DNA of 64,000 nt, taken from Planctomycetota bacterium. Lineage in GTDB: Bacteria; Planctomycetota; Brocadiia; Brocadiales; Bathyanammoxibiaceae. The position numbers were made by a program, and so were the translations under genes. Positions 1,386 through 60,735 of this stretch are shown here, piece by piece. The stretch lies in contig JACQVQ010000005.1 of NCBI GenBank assembly GCA_016209685.1, positions 150,655-214,654 of the forward strand. The letters run 5' to 3'. The notes beneath the pieces are model-generated. The model searched no databases. It worked only from the letters and a program-made list of their open reading frames with translations, and was not told where the DNA came from. Position 1 is the first letter of the stretch. Each line of letters begins with the position of its first letter.

Positions 1386-3341
1386 ATGCAAGAGCCGTTT
1401 GAGAGGATGGTACTATTAAACCCCGGCCCGGTGGTGGTATCGGAGAAGGTCAGGAAGGCCCTCCTTCGGGGAGATATCTGTCACAGGGAGGAAGAGTTCT
1501 CCCGCATCCTTAAGAGGGTAAGGCAGATGCTCCTTGCGGCCTTTACGCCTGGAGGGGGGTACACCTCGGCGATACTTACGGGTTCCGGCACTGCCGCCAT
1601 GGAGTCCTCTATAGCCTCCTCCGTTGGGGAAGGTAAGGCCATCCTGATAATCAACAACGGTGTCTATGGCGAGAGGTTCTCCCGTATGGCCTCCATCTAC
1701 GGCCACCGCAAGTTTGAGCTAGTCTACGACTGGAGGAAGTTGCCAGACCCTGGCGACATTGAAAAGGCCCTCAGAGAGCACCCGGAGATACAGGTAGTAG
1801 CCCTTGTGCACCATGAGACCTCTACGGGCCTGATTAACCCCGTGAGGGAGATTGGCAAGATAGCCAAGAAATACGGGAAGGTCTTCCTGCTGGACTCCAT
1901 AAGCGGCCTCGGGGGAGAGGAGTTAGACCTGGAAGGATGTAACGTAGACCTCTGCGTCGGCTCGGCCAACAAATGTATACAGGGGCTCCCGGGCCTTTCC
2001 TTTGTATTGATTAAAAAAGAAGAGATGGAGAGGCTAAAGAAGATACCCCCCCGTTCCATGTACCTCCATATACCTACCCTCTGGGAGAGTCAGGAAAAGG
2101 GCACCGTCCCCTTTACCCCGTCTATCCCGATATTTTATGCCCTGGAGGCGGCCCTGGAGGAACTCCTGGAAGAAGGAGTCCAGGGCAGGATTGCCCGCTA
2201 CAGGAAGGCCGCCGAGATCCTGCGTAGCGGCTTCAGAGAGATGGGCCTCAAGCCCTATCTGCCTGAGAAGTTACTATCCAATACCATCACGACCCTTTAT
2301 CTCCCCACCGGGTTTGACTATCAGACCCTCCATGACGGGTTAAAGGAGAGTAGGTTTGTAATTTATGCCGGACAGGAACGCCTCAAGGGAGAAATCTTCA
2401 GGGTGGCCAACATGGGGGAACTTACCAGGAAGGACCTGGAAGGCTTCCTGGGCTGTCTAAGGAAGATAGTCTCCCGCCCCTCTGCCTCAAGTAAGGCCGG
2501 GAGGTCTACGGTACGTGCCATAATCCTTGCGGCAGGGGTAGGTAAGAGGCTCATGCCCATTACGGGCCAGAGGCCCAAATGCCTGATAGAAATCGGCGGG
2601 AAGACCTTGCTGGATAGATACCTGGAATCCCTGAAAGAATCTTCCATCACAGAGGTCACCTTTGTACTGGGCCACCTGAAGGAAATGATACTCCCAAGGC
2701 TCAAGGAGGCAGAAAATACGTTTAAGACCCACTACATATACAATGAAAATTACACGAGGGGCAGTATCACCTCCCTCTGGGAGGCCAGGGAAAGACTCCA
2801 GGGCGACGTCCTCATTATGGACGCCGATGTACTATTCCACCCCACCCTTTTAAAAAGACTGCTTGAGTCCCCTAAAAAGAGTTGTTTCCTGCTGGAGGAG
2901 GACTTCACGGATACGGGAGAGGAGATGAAGCTCTTCGTCCAGGGGGAGCGGGTAGCGGCCATCTCTAAGAATGCGGAATTCGGAATTCAGAATGCGGAAT
3001 CCCGCACTCGGCAATCCGCACTCCGCAATCCGCACTCCGCAATCCGCACTTTAATTGGAGAGGGGGTAGGGTTCCTGAAGCTAGCCGGGGAGTATTGCCC
3101 TCAGCTTAGAAATACCCTGGAGGATTTTATTCGGGAAGGAAGGCTGGACGCAGAATATGAGGAGGCCCTGGACAGGCTGTTATCCTGCTGTGAGGTGGGC
3201 TACGAACCCGTAGACGGCCTCCCCTGGATAGAGATAGACTTTGAGGAAGACATACAGAGGGCAGAGAAGGATATACTGCCGATGTTAGACGGCAACAAGG
3301 GTGAACTGAGCCACAAAAAGGGATTGAAAGGACGCCCATGA
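1386..3341 (+). CDS. Fused 2-aminoethylphosphonate-pyruvate transaminase / phosphonate nucleotidyltransferase (PntC-like)
   Basis: N-terminus LLNPGPVVVSEKV with PLP-lysine context SANKCIQGLPG; C-terminus VRAIILAAGVGKRLMPITGQRPKCLIEIGGKTLLDR (NTP-transferase signature). Confidence 0.82.
   Translation: MQEPFERMVLLNPGPVVVSEKVRKALLRGDICHREEEFSRILKRVRQMLLAAFTPGGGYTSAILTGSGTAAMESSIASSVGEGKAILIINNGVYGERFSRMASIYGHRKFELVYDWRKLPDPGDIEKALREHPEIQVVALVHHETSTGLINPVREIGKIAKKYGKVFLLDSISGLGGEELDLEGCNVDLCVGSANKCIQGLPGLSFVLIKKEEMERLKKIPPRSMYLHIPTLWESQEKGTVPFTPSIPIFYALEAALEELLEEGVQGRIARYRKAAEILRSGFREMGLKPYLPEKLLSNTITTLYLPTGFDYQTLHDGLKESRFVIYAGQERLKGEIFRVANMGELTRKDLEGFLGCLRKIVSRPSASSKAGRSTVRAIILAAGVGKRLMPITGQRPKCLIEIGGKTLLDRYLESLKESSITEVTFVLGHLKEMILPRLKEAENTFKTHYIYNENYTRGSITSLWEARERLQGDVLIMDADVLFHPTLLKRLLESPKKSCFLLEEDFTDTGEEMKLFVQGERVAAISKNAEFGIQNAESRTRQSALRNPHSAIRTLIGEGVGFLKLAGEYCPQLRNTLEDFIREGRLDAEYEEALDRLLSCCEVGYEPVDGLPWIEIDFEEDIQRAEKDILPMLDGNKGELSHKKGLKGRP
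2968..3051. repeat. Family D (CGGAATNCGCAATCCGCA) array in-frame in AEPT-PntC
   Basis: 27-codon insert NAEFGIQNAESRTRQSALRNPHSAIRT. Confidence 0.92.
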
Positions 3342-8687: not shown

Positions 8688-8753
8688 AGCCCTGGTGGCG
8701 GAGCACCAGGGCTATAGCATTGGGGCTCTGCCCCCAATGCTCCGCCTCAGGCA
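8688..8753. repeat. Family B bipartite palindrome, intergenic
   Basis: agccctggtggcggagcaccagggctatagcattggggctctgcccccaatgct followed by a family C-like motif. Confidence 0.9.
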
Positions 8754-19499: not shown

Positions 19500-19585
19500 C
19501 TCAGTTGTCAGTCTTCAGTTGTCAGTCTTCAGACAACCGACCACTGCCTACCCCCTACTCCCTACTCCCTACCCCCTACTCCCTA

Positions 19586-37393: not shown

Positions 37394-38661
37394 GTATGAT
37401 ACCTGGCGTTAATGGTCACGTACTTCTCAGAGAGGTCACAGGTCCAGACCTCGGCCTCTGCGCGGCCCAGCCCCAGTTCCAGCCGTAAATCTAGTTCTTT
37501 TCCTTGCATAATGTTTTTGAGCATTGGGGGCAGAGCCCCAATGCTATAGCCCTGGTGCTCCGCCACCAGGGCTTGGATAGGGCTGGCCACAGACGTTCCT
37601 CCCTCAAAAATTAACGACTCGCCAATATATAGCCTGAGCCTTTTTTCGTCAAGGGTAATACCCGTGGCCCCTGCCGCAGATATGATTCGGCCCCAGTTGG
37701 GGTCCTCCCCGTTTATGGCTGTCTTTACCAGGGGAGAGTTGGCAATGGCCCGTGCGATAACCCCGGCCTCTTTTTCCTTCTTAGCCCCTTTGACTATAAC
37801 CCTTACGAACTTGGTGGCCCCCTCGCCGTCCTTTACGATGGCCCTGGCCAGCACCTGGCAGAGGTGTCCAAGGGCCTCCTGGAAGGCGGTCAGGTCTCTG
37901 CCTCTAAGGCATGGCCCCCCACTGGCCCCATTTGCCATGAGGATTACCGTGTCATTGGTGCTCATGTGTCCGTCAATGGTAATCTGGTTGAAGGAGCGAC
38001 TCACTGCCCTCTGTAGACACGCCTTTGACTGTCTCCTGGTGAGCGTGGCATCGGTGGTGATAAAGGCGAGCATGGTAGCCATATTGGGGGCTATCATCCC
38101 TGCCCCCTTTGCCGCCCCTCCAAGGGTGATGGTACGGCCCCCTGTGTCTATCTTCAGCGCAAGCTCCTTGGGGCTGGTATCGGTGGTCATAATCGCCCTG
38201 GTAAACGACCTGCCGTGCTCGGGGTCCCTGCTCATCTTCTGACCGGCCTCTCTTATCCCTGCAAGTATCTTTTCCATGGGAAGCGGTTGACCTATGATGC
38301 CCGTGGAGGCCACAAGGACTTCGGAGGGGGAGAGGCCGAGTTCCCTGGCCGTGGCCTCTGCCATTGCCATGGCGTTGAGGTGGCCCTGGGCACCTGTGCA
38401 GGCGTTGGCGTTACCGCTATTTACTACCACTGCCCTGATGGGTCCCCTCTTGACGGTCTCCCTGCTCAATCTTACCGGGGCGGCCACTATCTGGTTGGTA
38501 GTAAAGAGGGCCGCCGCCCGGGCGGGGCGGTTGGATAGCAGGAGGGCCAGGTCGTAGCCCCCTTGTTTAATGCCACAGGCGCAGGCCCCGGCCAGGAAGC
38601 CAGAGGGTGCCACCACGCCACCAGAAACTTCTTGTATATTGTCTTTAGACATAGATAACAT
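37390..38661 (-). CDS. argJ: Bifunctional ornithine acetyltransferase/N-acetylglutamate synthase
   Basis: VVVNSGNANACTGAQG, GAAKGAGMIAPNMATMLAFITTDA, DPNWGRIISAAGATG. Confidence 0.92.
   Translation of the reverse strand: MLSMSKDNIQEVSGGVVAPSGFLAGACACGIKQGGYDLALLLSNRPARAAALFTTNQIVAAPVRLSRETVKRGPIRAVVVNSGNANACTGAQGHLNAMAMAEATARELGLSPSEVLVASTGIIGQPLPMEKILAGIREAGQKMSRDPEHGRSFTRAIMTTDTSPKELALKIDTGGRTITLGGAAKGAGMIAPNMATMLAFITTDATLTRRQSKACLQRAVSRSFNQITIDGHMSTNDTVILMANGASGGPCLRGRDLTAFQEALGHLCQVLARAIVKDGEGATKFVRVIVKGAKKEKEAGVIARAIANSPLVKTAINGEDPNWGRIISAAGATGITLDEKRLRLYIGESLIFEGGTSVASPIQALVAEHQGYSIGALPPMLKNIMQGKELDLRLELGLGRAEAEVWTCDLSEKYVTINARYHT
37521..37574. repeat. Family B palindrome in-frame in argJ
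   Basis: agcattgggggcagagccccaatgctatagccctggtgctccgccaccagggct; reads ALVAEHQGYSIGALPPML. Confidence 0.92.
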
Positions 38662-40855: not shown

Positions 40856-41106
40856 CTAAGGAAACGTGCGGTTGCTCAGTCCTCAGTACGGAGTCTTCGG
40901 ACAACCGGCAACTATCTTACAACCTCCTTTAGTGAAAATACAGAAAGAGCAGATTTGAGATTTTTATTAAACGGGAAAATTCAGGAAAGGTCAAGTCCAT
41001 TTTTCTACTGCCCTTTTTGTTGGTCCCTACCCCCTACTCCCTAGCTTAACTATTTCCTTTACAATAAAGATATTTACCCTAAAATCTTGTAGTGTAGGAT
41101 GCAAAA

Positions 41107-42840
41107 ATGGACGATGTGATCCTGCCCAGAAGATACCTGGTGGGTTTTGATACTGCCCAACTGCCCGAACTTTTTACCGAGGTACTGGTAATTGGCAGTG
41201 GGGTGGCCGGGCTTTCAGCGGCCCTCTCAGCGGCCGAGGTGGCAGGGCCACTCCCGACTAGGGCGTCATCCGCCTCCTCAGGCGCACACCCGGCAAAGAT
41301 ACTCATAGTCTCTAAGGATAAGCTCGGGGAAAACAATACCATGCGGGCCCAGGGGGGTATCGCCGTAGTGCTCTCCCCCGGGGATAGCTTCAGGTGCCAC
41401 ATAAAAGATACCCTGGAGGCAGGACAGGGCCTGTGTGACCAAAAGGTGGTAAAAGAGGTGATACGCAACGGGCCTGTCAGGATAAAAGAGTTGATAGGAC
41501 TGGGGGCGAACTTTGACCGTGCGGTCAACTCTGTACCTCACGGCACGGGACATGGGCCACCCCCGCCTGAAGACGGCCCGCTAGCCCTGTACCGTTCTGG
41601 TACAGGGCTGGACCTGACCAAAGAAGGGGGACACAGCCGCCCCAGGGTGATACACGGCAGGGGAGATTCCACCGGGATGGTGGTAGAAGAGACCCTACTG
41701 GAGGCGGTGGAAGGCAACACCAACATAGACACCATGGACCACTGCTTTGCCATAGACCTTTTAGTGGTAGAAGGGGCCTGTCGTGGGGCGCTACTGTGGC
41801 ACAAACAGAAGGGGAGGTTCATCGTCTGGGCCGGAGAGACCATCCTGGCCACGGGGGGCTGTGGTCAGCTCTACAGGGAGACTACCAATTCTGTGGTGGC
41901 CACCGGAGACGGTACGGCAATGGCCTACCGGGCCGGGGCCACACTGCAGGACATGGAGTTCGTCCAGTTCCATCCCACTACCCTTTACATCGCAGGGGCC
42001 ACCAGGGCACTGATTACCGAGGCCATGCGGGGCGAAGGGGCCATCTTGAGGAATAAATGGGGCGAGCGCTTCATGCCCAGGTATCACCCCATGGCTGAAC
42101 TGGCCCCCAGGGACGTGGTCAGTCAGAGCATACTCCACGAGATGCAGCTCACCGAGCATACCCACGTGTACCTGGACGTAACCCATCTGCCGAGAGAGTT
42201 CCTGGGCTCCCGCTTTCCCCATATCTGCTCCACCTGCAAGTCTTTCCATATAGACATCTCAAAGGAATTAATCCCGGTGAGGCCAAGCGCCCACTACATG
42301 ATGGGGGGTATAAAGGTGGATGCCAGGACACGCACAGGTATCCCACACCTCTATGCCTGTGGAGAGACGGCCTCTACCGGGATGCATGGGGCCAACCGCC
42401 TGGGCAGTAACTCCTTATTGGAGGGACTGGTATACGGTCATAAAGCAGGCAGGGAGGCCTCTCTCTCGTCAAAGCGGCGGCATGGTAAGGTGAGGCCCTA
42501 TCCCCTGGAGGTAAGTATGGAGGCCAAGAGGCTGCGGAGGCTGGACCTGGAGGACATAAGGGACTCCTTAAAGAGCCTTATGTGGAGGTGTGCCGGGGTG
42601 GAGAGAGACGAGAAACACCTCAAGGAGGCTACGGACACCCTGGCCCAGTGGTGGGAATACGTCATGGATAAAGAGTTTCATACCCCTGAGGGCTGGGAAC
42701 TCCAGAACATGATACTCTTGGCAGGCCTCGTTATAAGGGCAACACAGGACAGAAAGGAGAGCAGGGGTGCCCATTACAGGAAGGACTATCCTCAAAGGGA
42801 CGACCGACATTGGAAGAGGCATATCACCTTTAGGGGGTAG
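41107..42840 (+). CDS. nadB: L-aspartate oxidase
   Basis: VLVIGSGVAGLSAALSAAE, NTMRAQGGIAVV, EGGHSRPRVIH, HYMMGGIKVDARTRTGIPHLYACGETASTGMHGANRLGSNSLLE. Confidence 0.88.
   Translation: MDDVILPRRYLVGFDTAQLPELFTEVLVIGSGVAGLSAALSAAEVAGPLPTRASSASSGAHPAKILIVSKDKLGENNTMRAQGGIAVVLSPGDSFRCHIKDTLEAGQGLCDQKVVKEVIRNGPVRIKELIGLGANFDRAVNSVPHGTGHGPPPPEDGPLALYRSGTGLDLTKEGGHSRPRVIHGRGDSTGMVVEETLLEAVEGNTNIDTMDHCFAIDLLVVEGACRGALLWHKQKGRFIVWAGETILATGGCGQLYRETTNSVVATGDGTAMAYRAGATLQDMEFVQFHPTTLYIAGATRALITEAMRGEGAILRNKWGERFMPRYHPMAELAPRDVVSQSILHEMQLTEHTHVYLDVTHLPREFLGSRFPHICSTCKSFHIDISKELIPVRPSAHYMMGGIKVDARTRTGIPHLYACGETASTGMHGANRLGSNSLLEGLVYGHKAGREASLSSKRRHGKVRPYPLEVSMEAKRLRRLDLEDIRDSLKSLMWRCAGVERDEKHLKEATDTLAQWWEYVMDKEFHTPEGWELQNMILLAGLVIRATQDRKESRGAHYRKDYPQRDDRHWKRHITFRG
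41583..41609. repeat. Family G palindrome in-frame in nadB
   Basis: agccctgtaccgttctggtacagggct; reads ALYRSGTGL. Confidence 0.9.
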
Positions 42841-44388: not shown

Positions 44389-44613
44389 GCCTTACCCTCC
44401 TTTAAAGGACCCTCAAAAGGGAAATACTTTTCTCAAAAGATGCTACTATAATAAATGCCAGGACGTATGTCAAGCAGTCTACGTTGACTTTTTGGGTTCA
44501 GGGACAAGGGGCAGGAACTAGGGGTCAGGGATTAGGGGTCAGAGGTCAGGGATTAGGGATTAGAAAAAGTTTATTTCCCTAATCCCTGGTCCCTGTTCCC
44601 TGTCCCCTAGTTC

Positions 44614-45738
44614 CTAGCTCCTGGCAAGGAACCTCAAGGCGTCAAAGAGGGGGCGTGGATGGAGCTCCCATAGATAGGAAGACTCCAGCGTCCCGGCATC
44701 GGCGCAAAGGGCACATGACTCGGCCCTCCTTATGAAATCTTTGTATCCAGCACCCCCTATTATCTCCCTCAAGCCCTTCTCCCTTACGTTAGCCATTACC
44801 CGTCCAGGACGGGTACAGTCAATGACATCCCCGTTGGTATCTACCCTGAAGACCAGCTTCTTGTAATGGCATCTGTAATGACCATTTGCATTAAATGTAG
44901 CGTACATGCCCAGGCGACGGAGCGCCTGGGCTATAGGGTTGGGGCTCTGTCCCCAACCCCCGACCAGAGCTTCGGGCCGAAGGCTTGTCTCGCACGTTTT
45001 TATAAAGGTATTTAAATACTCGTAAGAATTCAGCACAGGGAACCCCCTGTTCTTGGCGTGTCTGATAAGCTTAAAGGCACTTGACTGTCCTTCCTGAGAG
45101 GGTACTGCATCGGGGTCTATGGGCCTGGGAGAGACTGCATAGTCCAGGGTGTTTATTGCCTGAAAGATAATGGGAAGCCCCTCCTTACGACTGAACCCCA
45201 GTAGACCCTCCACCTCCTGGAGGTTCTCCCTTGTGATTACTGAGATAATTATAGGTCTTACCCCGGCAAAGTCTGCCCTGATAGACCTTATACCGTCTAC
45301 AGCCCTTCTAAAACACCCCGGCAGGCGGCGCATGGTATCATGGAATTCGTTTGGGGCGTCAAAGGATACAAGGAGGGTATCCAGATATGGCCCTATCTCC
45401 CCCACCCTTTCTGGCAGGTTGTAACCGTTGGTAATGATCGTAGTCTTTAGGCCCGCCTCCCTGGCCGAAAACAGCACCTCCCCCAGGTCCTCCCTCAACA
45501 GGGGTTCTCCACCCCAGATTACCACGCTCAGGAAGCCCGACCTCCCAGCCTGGGCATACAAATTCTTCACCTGCCCACTATCCAACTCCACTCCCTCCCC
45601 TTTCCATAGACAGAAGGGGCAGTCAGCATTACATCGGCGGGTGATGAGGTGGGAGAGTATAAAGGGCCTGCCCAGAAACCGGGCAGTCGATAGGGCCCTG
45701 GATAGTCCGGCTATATCTCTAAGTGCTTCTACCCTCAC
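44614..45738 (-). CDS. Radical SAM protein
   Basis: LITRRCNADCPFCLWKGEG, VVIWGGEPLLRED; contains in-frame repeat at 44908-44958. Confidence 0.82.
   Translation of the reverse strand: MRVEALRDIAGLSRALSTARFLGRPFILSHLITRRCNADCPFCLWKGEGVELDSGQVKNLYAQAGRSGFLSVVIWGGEPLLREDLGEVLFSAREAGLKTTIITNGYNLPERVGEIGPYLDTLLVSFDAPNEFHDTMRRLPGCFRRAVDGIRSIRADFAGVRPIIISVITRENLQEVEGLLGFSRKEGLPIIFQAINTLDYAVSPRPIDPDAVPSQEGQSSAFKLIRHAKNRGFPVLNSYEYLNTFIKTCETSLRPEALVGGWGQSPNPIAQALRRLGMYATFNANGHYRCHYKKLVFRVDTNGDVIDCTRPGRVMANVREKGLREIIGGAGYKDFIRRAESCALCADAGTLESSYLWELHPRPLFDALRFLARS
44908..44958. repeat. Family B palindrome in-frame in radical SAM
   Basis: gcccaggcgacggagcgcctgggctatagggttggggctctgtccccaacc; reads GWGQSPNPIAQALRRLG. 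Confidence 0.92.
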
Positions 45739-46126
45739 GTTTAGATAAGAAACTCTTTACCCACTCTTTTATCCGTTCTGCGGAATCTCTTGCCTTAACA
45801 GCAACTTCCTCGGTATAGCTACTGGGCCAATGTACAGGGTAACGTGTATCAACATAGAATGGGTTTAGGTAGCGACAGGGTTCCTCTATCGCTTTAATTT
45901 TTGGCTCTTTTTGCTTGCAAATCTCTAATAGTTCCAGGAGGTTATGAATAGGTCTAAATTCTAGCCGGTTGGCGATGATGAAAGCCTTAAGGTATTTCTC
46001 TGCCGATTGTTGAAAGTGGAAGCAGACCTGGGGAAAATACCCCATTTCCTTCAAGCCCAAAGAGGCAAACCCAAAGTCTTCTTCAGCCTTTTCAATCCAT
46101 TCCTTTACCACCTCATCCTGCGGCAT
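45719..46126 (-). CDS. HEPN-domain protein (HEPN/MNT module)
   Basis: WIEKAEEDFGFASLGLKEMGYFPQVCFHFQQSAEKYLKAFI. Confidence 0.82.
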   Translation of the reverse strand: MPQDEVVKEWIEKAEEDFGFASLGLKEMGYFPQVCFHFQQSAEKYLKAFIIANRLEFRPIHNLLELLEICKQKEPKIKAIEEPCRYLNPFYVDTRYPVHWPSSYTEEVAVKARDSAERIKEWVKSFLSKREGRST

Positions 46127-48957: not shown

Positions 48958-49010
48958 AGCCCTGAACCGTCCCTTCGCTCCGCTCCAGGGCAGGTCTGGT
49001 TTAGGGCCAG
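48958..49010. repeat. Family H element, intergenic
   Basis: agccctgaaccgtcccttcgctccgctccagggcaggtctggtttagggcc. Confidence 0.85.
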
Positions 49011-49065: not shown

Positions 49066-49929
49066 ATGCAAAAGATTAGACGCAAGTCTTTGCTTTATAA
49101 AAGCAGAGTAGAATTCGCCGACTTCTGCATCAACCACGTGGAGGGGTGTTCTCATGGATGTAGATACCCCTGTTACGCCATGATGATGAAGAAAAGGTGT
49201 GGCGTAATTTCTTCTTATGAGGATTGGTGCAGGCCAAAGATCGTTGAGAATGCCCTTGAACTGCTAGAAAGGGAGTTATCAAGATACAATGGTAAAATCA
49301 AATCAGTCCACCTGTGTTTCTCTACAGACCCGTTTATGTTCGGGTATGATGAGATAGGACAGTTAAGTCTAAGGCTAATGAGGAGGTTAAACAGCGAAAA
49401 TATCCCCTGTACCGTTCTCACAAAAGGCGTTTACCCAAAGGAGATTGCCTTGCCTGCCCTGTACCCTCATGGTACAGGGGATGAGAGGATGTCGCCAGCC
49501 CAGGTGACGGAGCACCTGGGCTATAGGGTTGGGGCTCTGCCCCCAACCCTGCCTCAGGCACGGAGGAGAAACAAGTTTGGCATAACGCTCGTCTCCTTAG
49601 ATGAGGACTTCAGGAGAGATTACGAACCTAATGCCGCCGGATTTGAGGAACGTATTAAGTCCCTTAGATACTTACATGAAAAAGGCTTCAAGACGTGGGT
49701 GAGCATGGAACCATACCCCACGCCCAATATAATAAGGCAAGACCTGCTTAAAATCCTGGAGGCGGTATCGTTTGCCGATGAGATTATCTTCGGGAGGTTA
49801 AACTACAGCCCCAGGACAAGGGTCTTTTCGCATTCAAAGACCTTCTATAATGACCAGGCAAAGGCTGTAGTAAATTTTTGCAAGAGAAATAATATTTCGT
49901 ATTATATCAAGGATGGGACTATAACTTAA
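49066..49929 (+). CDS. Radical SAM protein, spore photoproduct lyase-related, with CX3CX3C motif
   Basis: VEGCSHGCRYPCYAMMM; repeat-derived in-frame insert at 49456-49560. Confidence 0.72.
   Translation: MQKIRRKSLLYKSRVEFADFCINHVEGCSHGCRYPCYAMMMKKRCGVISSYEDWCRPKIVENALELLERELSRYNGKIKSVHLCFSTDPFMFGYDEIGQLSLRLMRRLNSENIPCTVLTKGVYPKEIALPALYPHGTGDERMSPAQVTEHLGYRVGALPPTLPQARRRNKFGITLVSLDEDFRRDYEPNAAGFEERIKSLRYLHEKGFKTWVSMEPYPTPNIIRQDLLKILEAVSFADEIIFGRLNYSPRTRVFSHSKTFYNDQAKAVVNFCKRNNISYYIKDGTIT
49456..49560. repeat. Family G + B + C-like elements in tandem, in-frame in radical SAM
   Basis: gccctgtaccctcatggtacagggg ... cccaggtgacggagcacctgggctatagggttggggctctgcccccaaccct ... gcctcaggca. Confidence 0.92.
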
Positions 49930-49934
49930 TTTAT

Positions 49935-49988
49935 AGCCCAGGTGACGGAGCACCTGGGCTATAGGGTTGGGGCTCTGCCCCCAACCCT
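49935..49988. repeat. Family B palindrome, intergenic
   Basis: agcccaggtgacggagcacctgggctatagggttggggctctgcccccaaccct. Confidence 0.95.
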
Positions 49989-50078
49989 CTCTACGTAGTT
50001 CACTACCTCTTTAAAAGTCTCATTGGTAAAGGGCAATCCCCTGTCTTACAATGGTACTTTGCATTAGTAATGTGGTTG

Positions 50079-53830: not shown

Positions 53831-53835
53831 TTTTC

Positions 53836-53906
53836 AAATGCGGAGTTCGGAATACGGAGTGCGGAATTGAAACAACTCCGCAATCCGCATTCTGCATTCC
53901 GCATTC
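53836..53906. repeat. Family D array
   Basis: aatgcggagttcggaatacggagtgcgg...ccgcattctgcattccgcattc. Confidence 0.9.
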
Positions 53907-54253: not shown

Positions 54254-54705
54254 TATTTGTCCTCGCCTTTTAGGGCAGGGGCGGTCTCCACCCCTACAAA
54301 TTCCAGCGTATCAGGGTTCAATCTCCACTTCCCGTCCAGCCCACAGCCTTCAGTGATTCCCCTTACCAGCCCTTCCCTCTCTGCCTGCAAGCCTGCCGTC
54401 TCTATCTGCAACGCCCTGGCCCTCTCGTTTAGCAGGGCAAGCTGTAGATTAATGTTGCTGATTGAGAGGTTCAGCCTCTCTAGCTTTAATCTGTCTAGCT
54501 CTTTGAGTTCGGGCTTGGTCTGGGGCTTATGCAATAAGCCCCTACAGTTCCCCTGACCCCTATTCCCTATTTTTTGTTCCACGAAGACCTCCTTTTCAAA
54601 TGCGGATTGCGGATTGCAGATTGCGGAGTTCAATTCCGCACTCCGCACTCCCCATTCCGCACTCGGAACGCATTCCCCATTCCCCACCCCGCATTCGTTA
54701 CGCAT
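54253..54705 (-). CDS. Coiled-coil protein of phage-like module (N-terminal part repeat-derived)
   Basis: LKELDRLKLERLNLSISNINLQLALLNERARALQIETAGLQAEREGL. Confidence 0.5.
   Translation of the reverse strand: MRNECGVGNGECVPSAEWGVRSAELNSAICNPQSAFEKEVFVEQKIGNRGQGNCRGLLHKPQTKPELKELDRLKLERLNLSISNINLQLALLNERARALQIETAGLQAEREGLVRGITEGCGLDGKWRLNPDTLEFVGVETAPALKGEDK
54596..54703. repeat. Family D array overlapping the N-terminus of ORF 54253
   Basis: aaatgcggattgcggattgcagattgcgg...cgcattcgttacgcat. Confidence 0.9.
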
Positions 54706-57966: not shown

Positions 57967-58236
57967 TCATTCCCCTGTCTGCTGACCCCTGACTGCTGAC
58001 TGCTGATTCCTGTCTTTCTTCAACTTATCCAGCTTCTTTGCAATCTCAAACTGCTGGTGGAAGCCCAGGCGACAGAGCGCCTGGGCTATAGGGTTGGGGC
58101 TCTGCCCCCAACCCTGGGCCAGGACAAAGAAGCCCAGTATCCAGCACAGGGTCAGGGCTATAGTAACCAGGGTATCTAGCATTTTAATTCCGAATTCCGA
58201 AGTCCGAATTCCGAATTCGGGCTTCTGTCCGTACAC
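57967..58236 (-). CDS. Small TM protein largely assembled from dispersed repeats
   Basis: FGIRTSEFGIK + MLDTLVTIALTLCWILGFFVLAQ + GWGQSPNPIAQAL + NQQSAVRGQQ. Confidence 0.4.
   Translation of the reverse strand: MYGQKPEFGIRTSEFGIKMLDTLVTIALTLCWILGFFVLAQGWGQSPNPIAQALCRLGFHQQFEIAKKLDKLKKDRNQQSAVRGQQTGE
58063..58114. repeat. Family B palindrome in ORF 57967
   Basis: gcccaggcgacagagcgcctgggctatagggttggggctctgcccccaacc. Confidence 0.92.
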
Positions 58237-59313: not shown

Positions 59314-59403
59314 AGGCTAAAGTCATGCCAAAGGCAGACCTGCCTCAGGCACGGCCTGCGGCTACTATTCCCTGACCCCTAAGTTCATGCCCAATCAAAC
59401 CTC

Positions 59404-60377: not shown

Positions 60378-60482
60378 ATTCCGAGTGTGGAATGGGGAAT
60401 GCGGAATGCGGAATGCGAAGTTATTTTAATTCCGCATTCCGCAATCCGAAATCCGCATTTAAAACATTCCGCATTCCGCATT
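60378..60482. repeat. Family D array
   Basis: gaatgcggaatgcggaatgcg...attccgcattccgcatt. Confidence 0.9.
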
Positions 60483-60735
60483 ACCCGTGATGTACCCTCA
60501 GGTACCATGCCAGGAGGGTGGTGAAGGCCGCCCCGAAGAAGCCCGCCATACCCAGGACGACGTGCCACCTGGTCTTCAGGGCCACCAGGTCATTGTGGTC
60601 CCTAAGGAATACGGCTATTAGGTCCTCCAGGTGGCTGACCTTTTCTTCCAGGCGGGCTACCTTCTCCGCTACCCCTGAGGTCTGTCTTATAAGCCCCTCC
60701 AACTCTTCCAGAATACGCCCCTCGCAGTTCCTCAC
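60481..60735 (-). CDS. Small coiled-coil protein with C-terminal TM (XhlA/holin-like)
   Basis: ARLEEKVSHLEDLIAVFLRDHNDLVALKTRWHVVLGMAGFFGAAFTTLLAWYL. Confidence 0.55.
   Translation of the reverse strand: MRNCEGRILEELEGLIRQTSGVAEKVARLEEKVSHLEDLIAVFLRDHNDLVALKTRWHVVLGMAGFFGAAFTTLLAWYLRVHHG

Follow-up and report, generated by a model that had tools for sequence, protein, structure and literature searches.

The window, a stretch of 64,000 nt from a Planctomycetota bacterium (order Brocadiales) whose genome measures 2.02 Mb, contains a radical SAM gene that reads as a single open frame of 287 codons across three palindromic motifs: a G palindrome, a B element and a GCCTCAGGCA motif (Table 1). A preliminary description of this DNA had already placed the three motifs in one frame and a second B copy directly downstream of the gene, and both observations held. 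The encoded protein, at 287 aa, is longer than its full-length homologues (about 252-256 aa); it scores under the cut-offs of the nearest NCBIfam models, and a PDB sequence search returned no relative of it. For the source genome, the sequence used was that of contig 3 and matched stretches.

The interrupted radical SAM gene

A scan of species genomes yielded 37 related loci, and 31 full-length homologues from several phyla were aligned. The 33 extra codons (99 nt) of the focal gene are missing in all 31. Within the same genus, the counterpart in genome G002 is 89% identical and insert-free. The comparison with orthologous radical SAM genes that the preliminary description had proposed therefore found the insert in none of the homologues aligned, and repeat-free homologues do not carry it. 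Alignment with G002 at the DNA level divides the 99 nt into two pieces, of 27 nt and 72 nt. The encoded peptide had been taken for a single unbroken insert of ~35 residues; it is instead 33 codons in two pieces with the native GGATGAGAGGATGT between them, since the DERM at its centre is ancestral (the sister gene has DEGM).

The first piece corresponds to the G palindrome, whose palindrome proper spans 49455-49481 and whose consensus is AGCCCTGTACC-N5-GGTACAGGGCT. The second consists of CGCC, the 54-nt B element and the tail GCCTCAGGCACGGA. The 13-mer GCCTCAGGCACGG at the start of this tail occurs 5 times, whereas the reversed control sequence yields no copy. The focal stretch folds much more stably than shuffled versions of it (DNA z = -4.56, 0/200), and Rfam gave one sub-threshold match only over 49400-50050 (19 bits, cut-off 29).

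Table 1. Features of the window considered in this study
Feature	Position in window	Strand	Remarks
B element	8688..8741	+	crossed by no long ORF
B in frame in argJ	37520..37573	-	sister site AGAACT, +48 nt
G in frame in nadB (L-aspartate oxidase; gene 41098-42837)	41583..41609	+	+27 nt relative to sister genome; extra relative to solved structures
B and second palindrome AGCTTCGGGCCGAAGGCT, composite in frame in second radical SAM gene (44617-45756, - strand)	44907..44960	+	+75 nt
Radical SAM gene, host of insertions	49066..49929	+	Pfam PF04055, CX3CX3C motif GCSHGCRYPCY
Insertion 1, G palindrome, 27 nt net	49452..49478	+	alignment with G002
Native spacer GGATGAGAGGATGT, 14 nt	49479..49492	+	common to both genomes (element-free sister gene)
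Insertion 2, 72 nt net	49493..49564	+	B nested in 24-nt residue attributed to E (CGCC-AG..CT-GCCTCAGGCACGGA)
B element, 54-nt double hairpin AG..CT-AT-AG..CT	49497..49550	+	translated as AQVTEHLGYRVGALPPTL
GCCTCAGGCA motif	49551-49560	+	part of tail
Tail GCCTCAGGCACGGA	49551..49564	+	first 13 nt also in copies at window 59342, C14:15883, C2:84691, C8:402757
Second B copy	49935..49988	+	identical to first B, just past stop codon, absent from sister genome
B element	58062..58115	+	crossed by short ORFs only
E copy with B-free AGACCT	59334..59354	+	within GTAG-type REP (CAGGCTAAAG..CCTGCGGCTAC)

The B family and its insertion target

The consensus of B, 54 nt long, is AGCCC(A/T)GG..GGAGC..CC(T/A)GGGCT-AT-AG(CATT/GGTT)GGGGCTCTGCCCCCAA..CT, and each of its two hairpins opens with AG and closes with CT. 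Among 36 copies, most start with AGC and end with CT, and stem positions covary: positions 6/21 are T-A in 30 copies and A-T in 6, positions 31/52 C-G in 28 and G-C in 6, and positions 32/51 A-T in 27 and G-C in 5. A terminal GTAG/CGTC tag is absent from all 36, as it is from the G consensus. Forms carrying the first hairpin alone also exist. We counted about 33 matches to B in the source genome and 8 and 17 in two other genomes of the genus; the core pattern occurs in 3 of the 62 genomes of the order, all from this one genus, and in none of the other 59. B is thus a mobile-looking family limited to one genus. G is present at 15 places in the source genome, and elements of both families are found between genes too. 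Four B copies of the GGGTTGGGG subtype (window 44907, 49497, 49935 and 58062) lie within 14 kb, hinting at local spread of this subtype; most others are of the GCATTGGGG subtype.

Besides the focal gene, ten genes carry B or G in frame, and for nine of them a sister genome shows the site without the element. G is in nadB, and B is in argJ, a MOFRL glycerate kinase gene, kdtA (in G002) and the genes for GvpF, an FdoI-like cytochrome b, a DUF1848-type protein, a second radical SAM protein, a prohead protease and a Big_1-like protein; the names KdtA, GvpF, FdoI, DUF1848-type, prohead protease and Big_1-like are presumptive, assigned by reading the sequences. The glycerate kinase gene is the exception without an element-free counterpart, both genomes carrying B. 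In PDB-based alignments the glycerate kinase insert makes a clean break at residues 354-375 relative to 1x3l/2b8n, and the NadB insert is placed in the same way; for ArgJ the alignment with 1vz6 is compatible and less sharp. The nadB gene of G002 has a different in-frame insert, of 33 nt, near residue 57. Counting indels of at least 12 nt, 25 of the 28 that fall within long ORFs of both genomes are multiples of three, the pattern that survival of in-frame events alone would produce; elsewhere the figure is 13 of 37 (a 13/12/12 split). All three interior exceptions are in stretches where the alignment is poor; two of these are separated by 18 nt and together make 48.

Comparison of filled and B-free sites shows where B enters. 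Since B measures 54 nt yet adds 48 nt net, AG and CT must be common to element and target and two bases must be lost: B replaces the middle of AGNNCT, so that AG-NN-CT becomes AG-N50-CT. Five of the seven resolved sites follow this rule exactly, resolved meaning that the flanks are clear on both sides, with four nested or diverged loci, read from alignments, left out. Sister-genome comparison gave AGAACT in argJ, AGACCT in the GvpF gene and AGCCCT in an H palindrome (described below), while the sites AGGTCT of the prohead protease gene and AGCACT of the Big_1-like gene are identical in both sister genomes. The two sites off the exact rule are GGCCCT in kdtA (GGNNCT) and AGTCCGACT in the FdoI-like gene (AG-N5-CT). 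A given site would match exactly by chance about once in 256 cases, so the agreement is not coincidence, though the sample is small. Three B insertions in complex contexts, in the second radical SAM gene and at both DUF1848 sites, give no readable target. MITEs derive from an IS and have terminal inverted repeats and a target-site duplication; the resolved B sites show no direct duplication, two bases of AGNNCT being replaced instead. The G sites in nadB and the focal gene show no AGNNCT target.

Other repeats crowd the same region. Arrays of 7-nt units (TCCGCAT-like, CTACTCC-like, CAGGGGT-like), frequently arranged in a pair of inverted arms, lie at 2964-3044, 19541-19585, about 44501-44623, 53831-53906, 54593-54703 and 60378-60497 of the window; one array of 123 nt is absent from G002, so such arrays too come and go. 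Near-perfect GTAGGGGC..GCCCCTAC palindromes lie at window 6527, 13586, 28588, 29430, 30316, 32235, 37366, 53241, 57859 and 63140, and number 21 in 215 kb of contig 3, where shuffling gives none.

Apparent nesting of elements at the focal locus

How did B come to lie in the focal gene? The sister sequence offers no AGNNCT at the exact insertion spot. At other loci, palindromes that offer such a site are shown to be favoured hosts of B. The H palindrome (AGCCCTGAACC-N5-GGTTCAGGGCT) opens with AGCCCT, and at least 7 B copies sit exactly at this hexamer and are followed by the rest of H. In kdtA both states are available: H is empty in G000 and has B inside it in G002, with a gain of 48 nt. Nesting extends to further families, since a 24-nt palindrome (CCCTTCGCTCCGCTCAAGGGCAGG) occurs in an H loop and, in G002 and not G000, in a CCGCCTGAGGCGG palindrome of the glycerate kinase gene, and in genome G001 two further palindromes lie within the first hairpin of B. 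Close to the focal gene, at window 48961-49010, an H carries the 24-nt palindrome in its loop, and at L031 a further palindrome, CGCCTCAGGCGGAT, occupies the inner loop.

The repeat E (..AAAGGCAGACCTGCCTCAGGCACGG) would have played the part of host in the focal gene. E lies in a GTAG-type REP at window 59334 onward and on contig C14, with AGACCT directly before GCCTCAGGCACGG, and both in the focal gene and at C2:84694 B sits at this AGACCT junction. The focal B thus appears to lie inside the AGACCT of E. The 24-nt residue around it matches E solely on the AG..CT-GCCTCAGGCACGG side, its left end being CGCC against the AAAGGC of E. Since the E copies that lack B have AGACCT precisely at this point, we infer that B arrived after E and that G was a separate hit; the order at the focal locus is drawn from copies elsewhere, as no compared genome has the focal gene with E or G alone. 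Taken together, the focal gene very probably received two separate insertions of short mobile palindromes, one of G and one made up of B apparently nested in an earlier E, and its frame was kept throughout.

The sequential insertion of elements into elements that the preliminary description had envisaged is supported. Its preferred landing spot fits B in the form of the short site AGNNCT, often supplied by other palindromes, and does not fit the focal gene as a hot spot. Nor do G and B make one fixed unit, an arrangement it had asked about: both occur alone elsewhere, and here 14 nt of native sequence separate them. A single G+B+E unit is rejected because of this native spacer and the solo copies. 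The tail of E and B, on the other hand, may partly form a unit, given that the two also occur together at C2:84694, where the B variant is similar.

This pair is the basis of a different account, in which B and E move as a ready-made composite, so that insertion 2 was a single event and no nesting took place within the focal gene. At C2:84694, B is followed directly by GCCTCAGGCACGG and is a closely similar variant (GGTGACGGAGCACC). However, that locus has the longer flank of E (..CCTGCGGCTAC) and a duplicated CTATAGGG, both lacking in the focal copy; E stands without B, its AGACCT intact, at window 59342 and C14:15883, and nearly every B copy is free of E, the identical one 438 nt from the focal B among them. 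We therefore consider a ready-made composite unlikely, if worth keeping in mind.

Much less probable is that the focal gene is a decaying pseudogene tolerating junk. It is not obviously essential and carries 33 extra codons, yet its frame is intact, the CX3CX3C motif is kept, and similar insertions are found in ArgJ, NadB and KdtA. Purifying selection acts on the gene outside the insert, with a dN/dS of 0.09 over 247 codons (55 synonymous and 25 non-synonymous changes) in comparison with the element-free G002 gene; part of that signal may be older than the insertion. Slighter still are the chances that the encoded peptide, A-V-EH-GY--GALPP, was favoured by selection as a functional module: this reading (ALVAEHQGYSIGALPP or similar) is found in six genes, but at least five other in-gene copies use two other frames (LGAEPQ.YSPGAPPPG and WGQSPN.IA..LR..G), and the B stems covary at the DNA level. 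That the insert is ancestral and was lost from relatives by deletion between repeats is hardly credible, for although palindromes are deletion-prone and the common AG..CT ends could be footprints, the 31 full-length homologues from several phyla are without it, two other loci have identical B-free sites in two sister genomes, and H occurs without B where another genome has B inside H.

Mobilisation and relation to known palindromic repeats

We return to two separate hits, the second nested, as the preferred reading. At other loci B enters a 6-bp AGNNCT, displacing its central two bases with a gain of 48 nt; the AG/CT ends would represent either the cut site of an enzyme or microhomology. The elements might copy as folded hairpins in single-stranded DNA, at replication forks or through an HUH/Y1 transposase acting in trans; we would guess at either a RAYT acting in trans or a template switch at AG/CT microhomology. 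Net gains such as 21, 24, 27, 48, 69, 72 and 75 nt preserve the frame, disruptive insertions would be lost, and in-frame ones would persist as peptide inserts in tolerant loops. Benefit to the host need not be assumed.

The source genome has three RAYT-like genes, two of them flanked by their own hairpins (GTAGGGTGCG.. and GTAGCCGCAGGC..); none of the three is flanked by B. About 240 nt downstream of one RAYT lies a G palindrome, with no B there, and no mobilising enzyme could be tied to B in this genome. The RAYT genes at L086 1447-2014 and L088 1402-1911 are flanked by GTAG-tagged hairpins (GTAGGGTGCGT..ACGCACCC and GTAGCCGCAGGCTTTAGCCTGCG) and are likely genuine REPtrons in this genus.

Short palindromes lying in frame in many unrelated, unbroken genes are known from Rickettsia and Wolbachia (PMC10969869, PMC3733652). 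Rickettsia palindromic elements (RPEs) are about 150 bp long (PMC10969869), and RPE-4 and RPE-6 end in CGTC (PMC3733652). Like them, the present elements are inserted in frame in several unrelated functional genes (the focal one and ten others). Unlike RPEs, here compared by description, B is a 54-nt double hairpin, untagged, found in a planctomycete-type genus and with a resolved AGNNCT site. REPs are usually extragenic (PMC12306157); intragenic GTAG/CGTC REPs or their dimers contribute 20-30 aa to ORFs of Opitutus terrae and Rickettsia conorii, sometimes two per ORF (PMC3733652), and the focal ORF likewise holds two insertions. In contrast with these REPs, B has no terminal GTAG or CGTC and flanks no RAYT, whereas the GTAG hairpins of this genome adjoin two RAYT genes. 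Like BIMEs (paired REPs), B combines two imperfect palindromes of opposite orientation in a single unit, although its spacing and sequence are constant at 54 nt and GTAG is missing. Organelle genomes contain hairpin elements that can lie nested in each other and leave very short target marks, which in yeast are AG or ACT; examples are mitochondrial GC clusters, double-hairpin elements and Volvox palindromic repeats (PMC4478555, PMC2670323). Yeast GC clusters show a putative AG duplication, while B is bordered by AG and CT, with loss of two bases.

In its way of working B resembles RPEs and intragenic REPs, and nested palindromes are familiar from organelles. Literature word searches, of incomplete coverage, found no report of such elements in Brocadiales. 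We propose tentatively, and with slightly more doubt than conviction, that B typifies an undescribed bacterial class of mobile hairpins that replace the middle of AGNNCT, prefer other hairpins with AGNNCT at their ends or in their loops, build nested composites and are a steady source of in-frame peptides, in multiples of three nucleotides, in housekeeping enzymes.

The in-frame palindromes of Rickettsia genes have been described as a puzzle lacking a mechanism. Here, a lineage far from Rickettsia supplies paired filled and element-free sites in sister genomes, which fix one element's insertion at base-pair resolution, reveal nesting and include inserts carried by the enzymes ArgJ, NadB and KdtA. 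What moves small palindromes, and how often their inserts feed new protein segments, are now testable questions.
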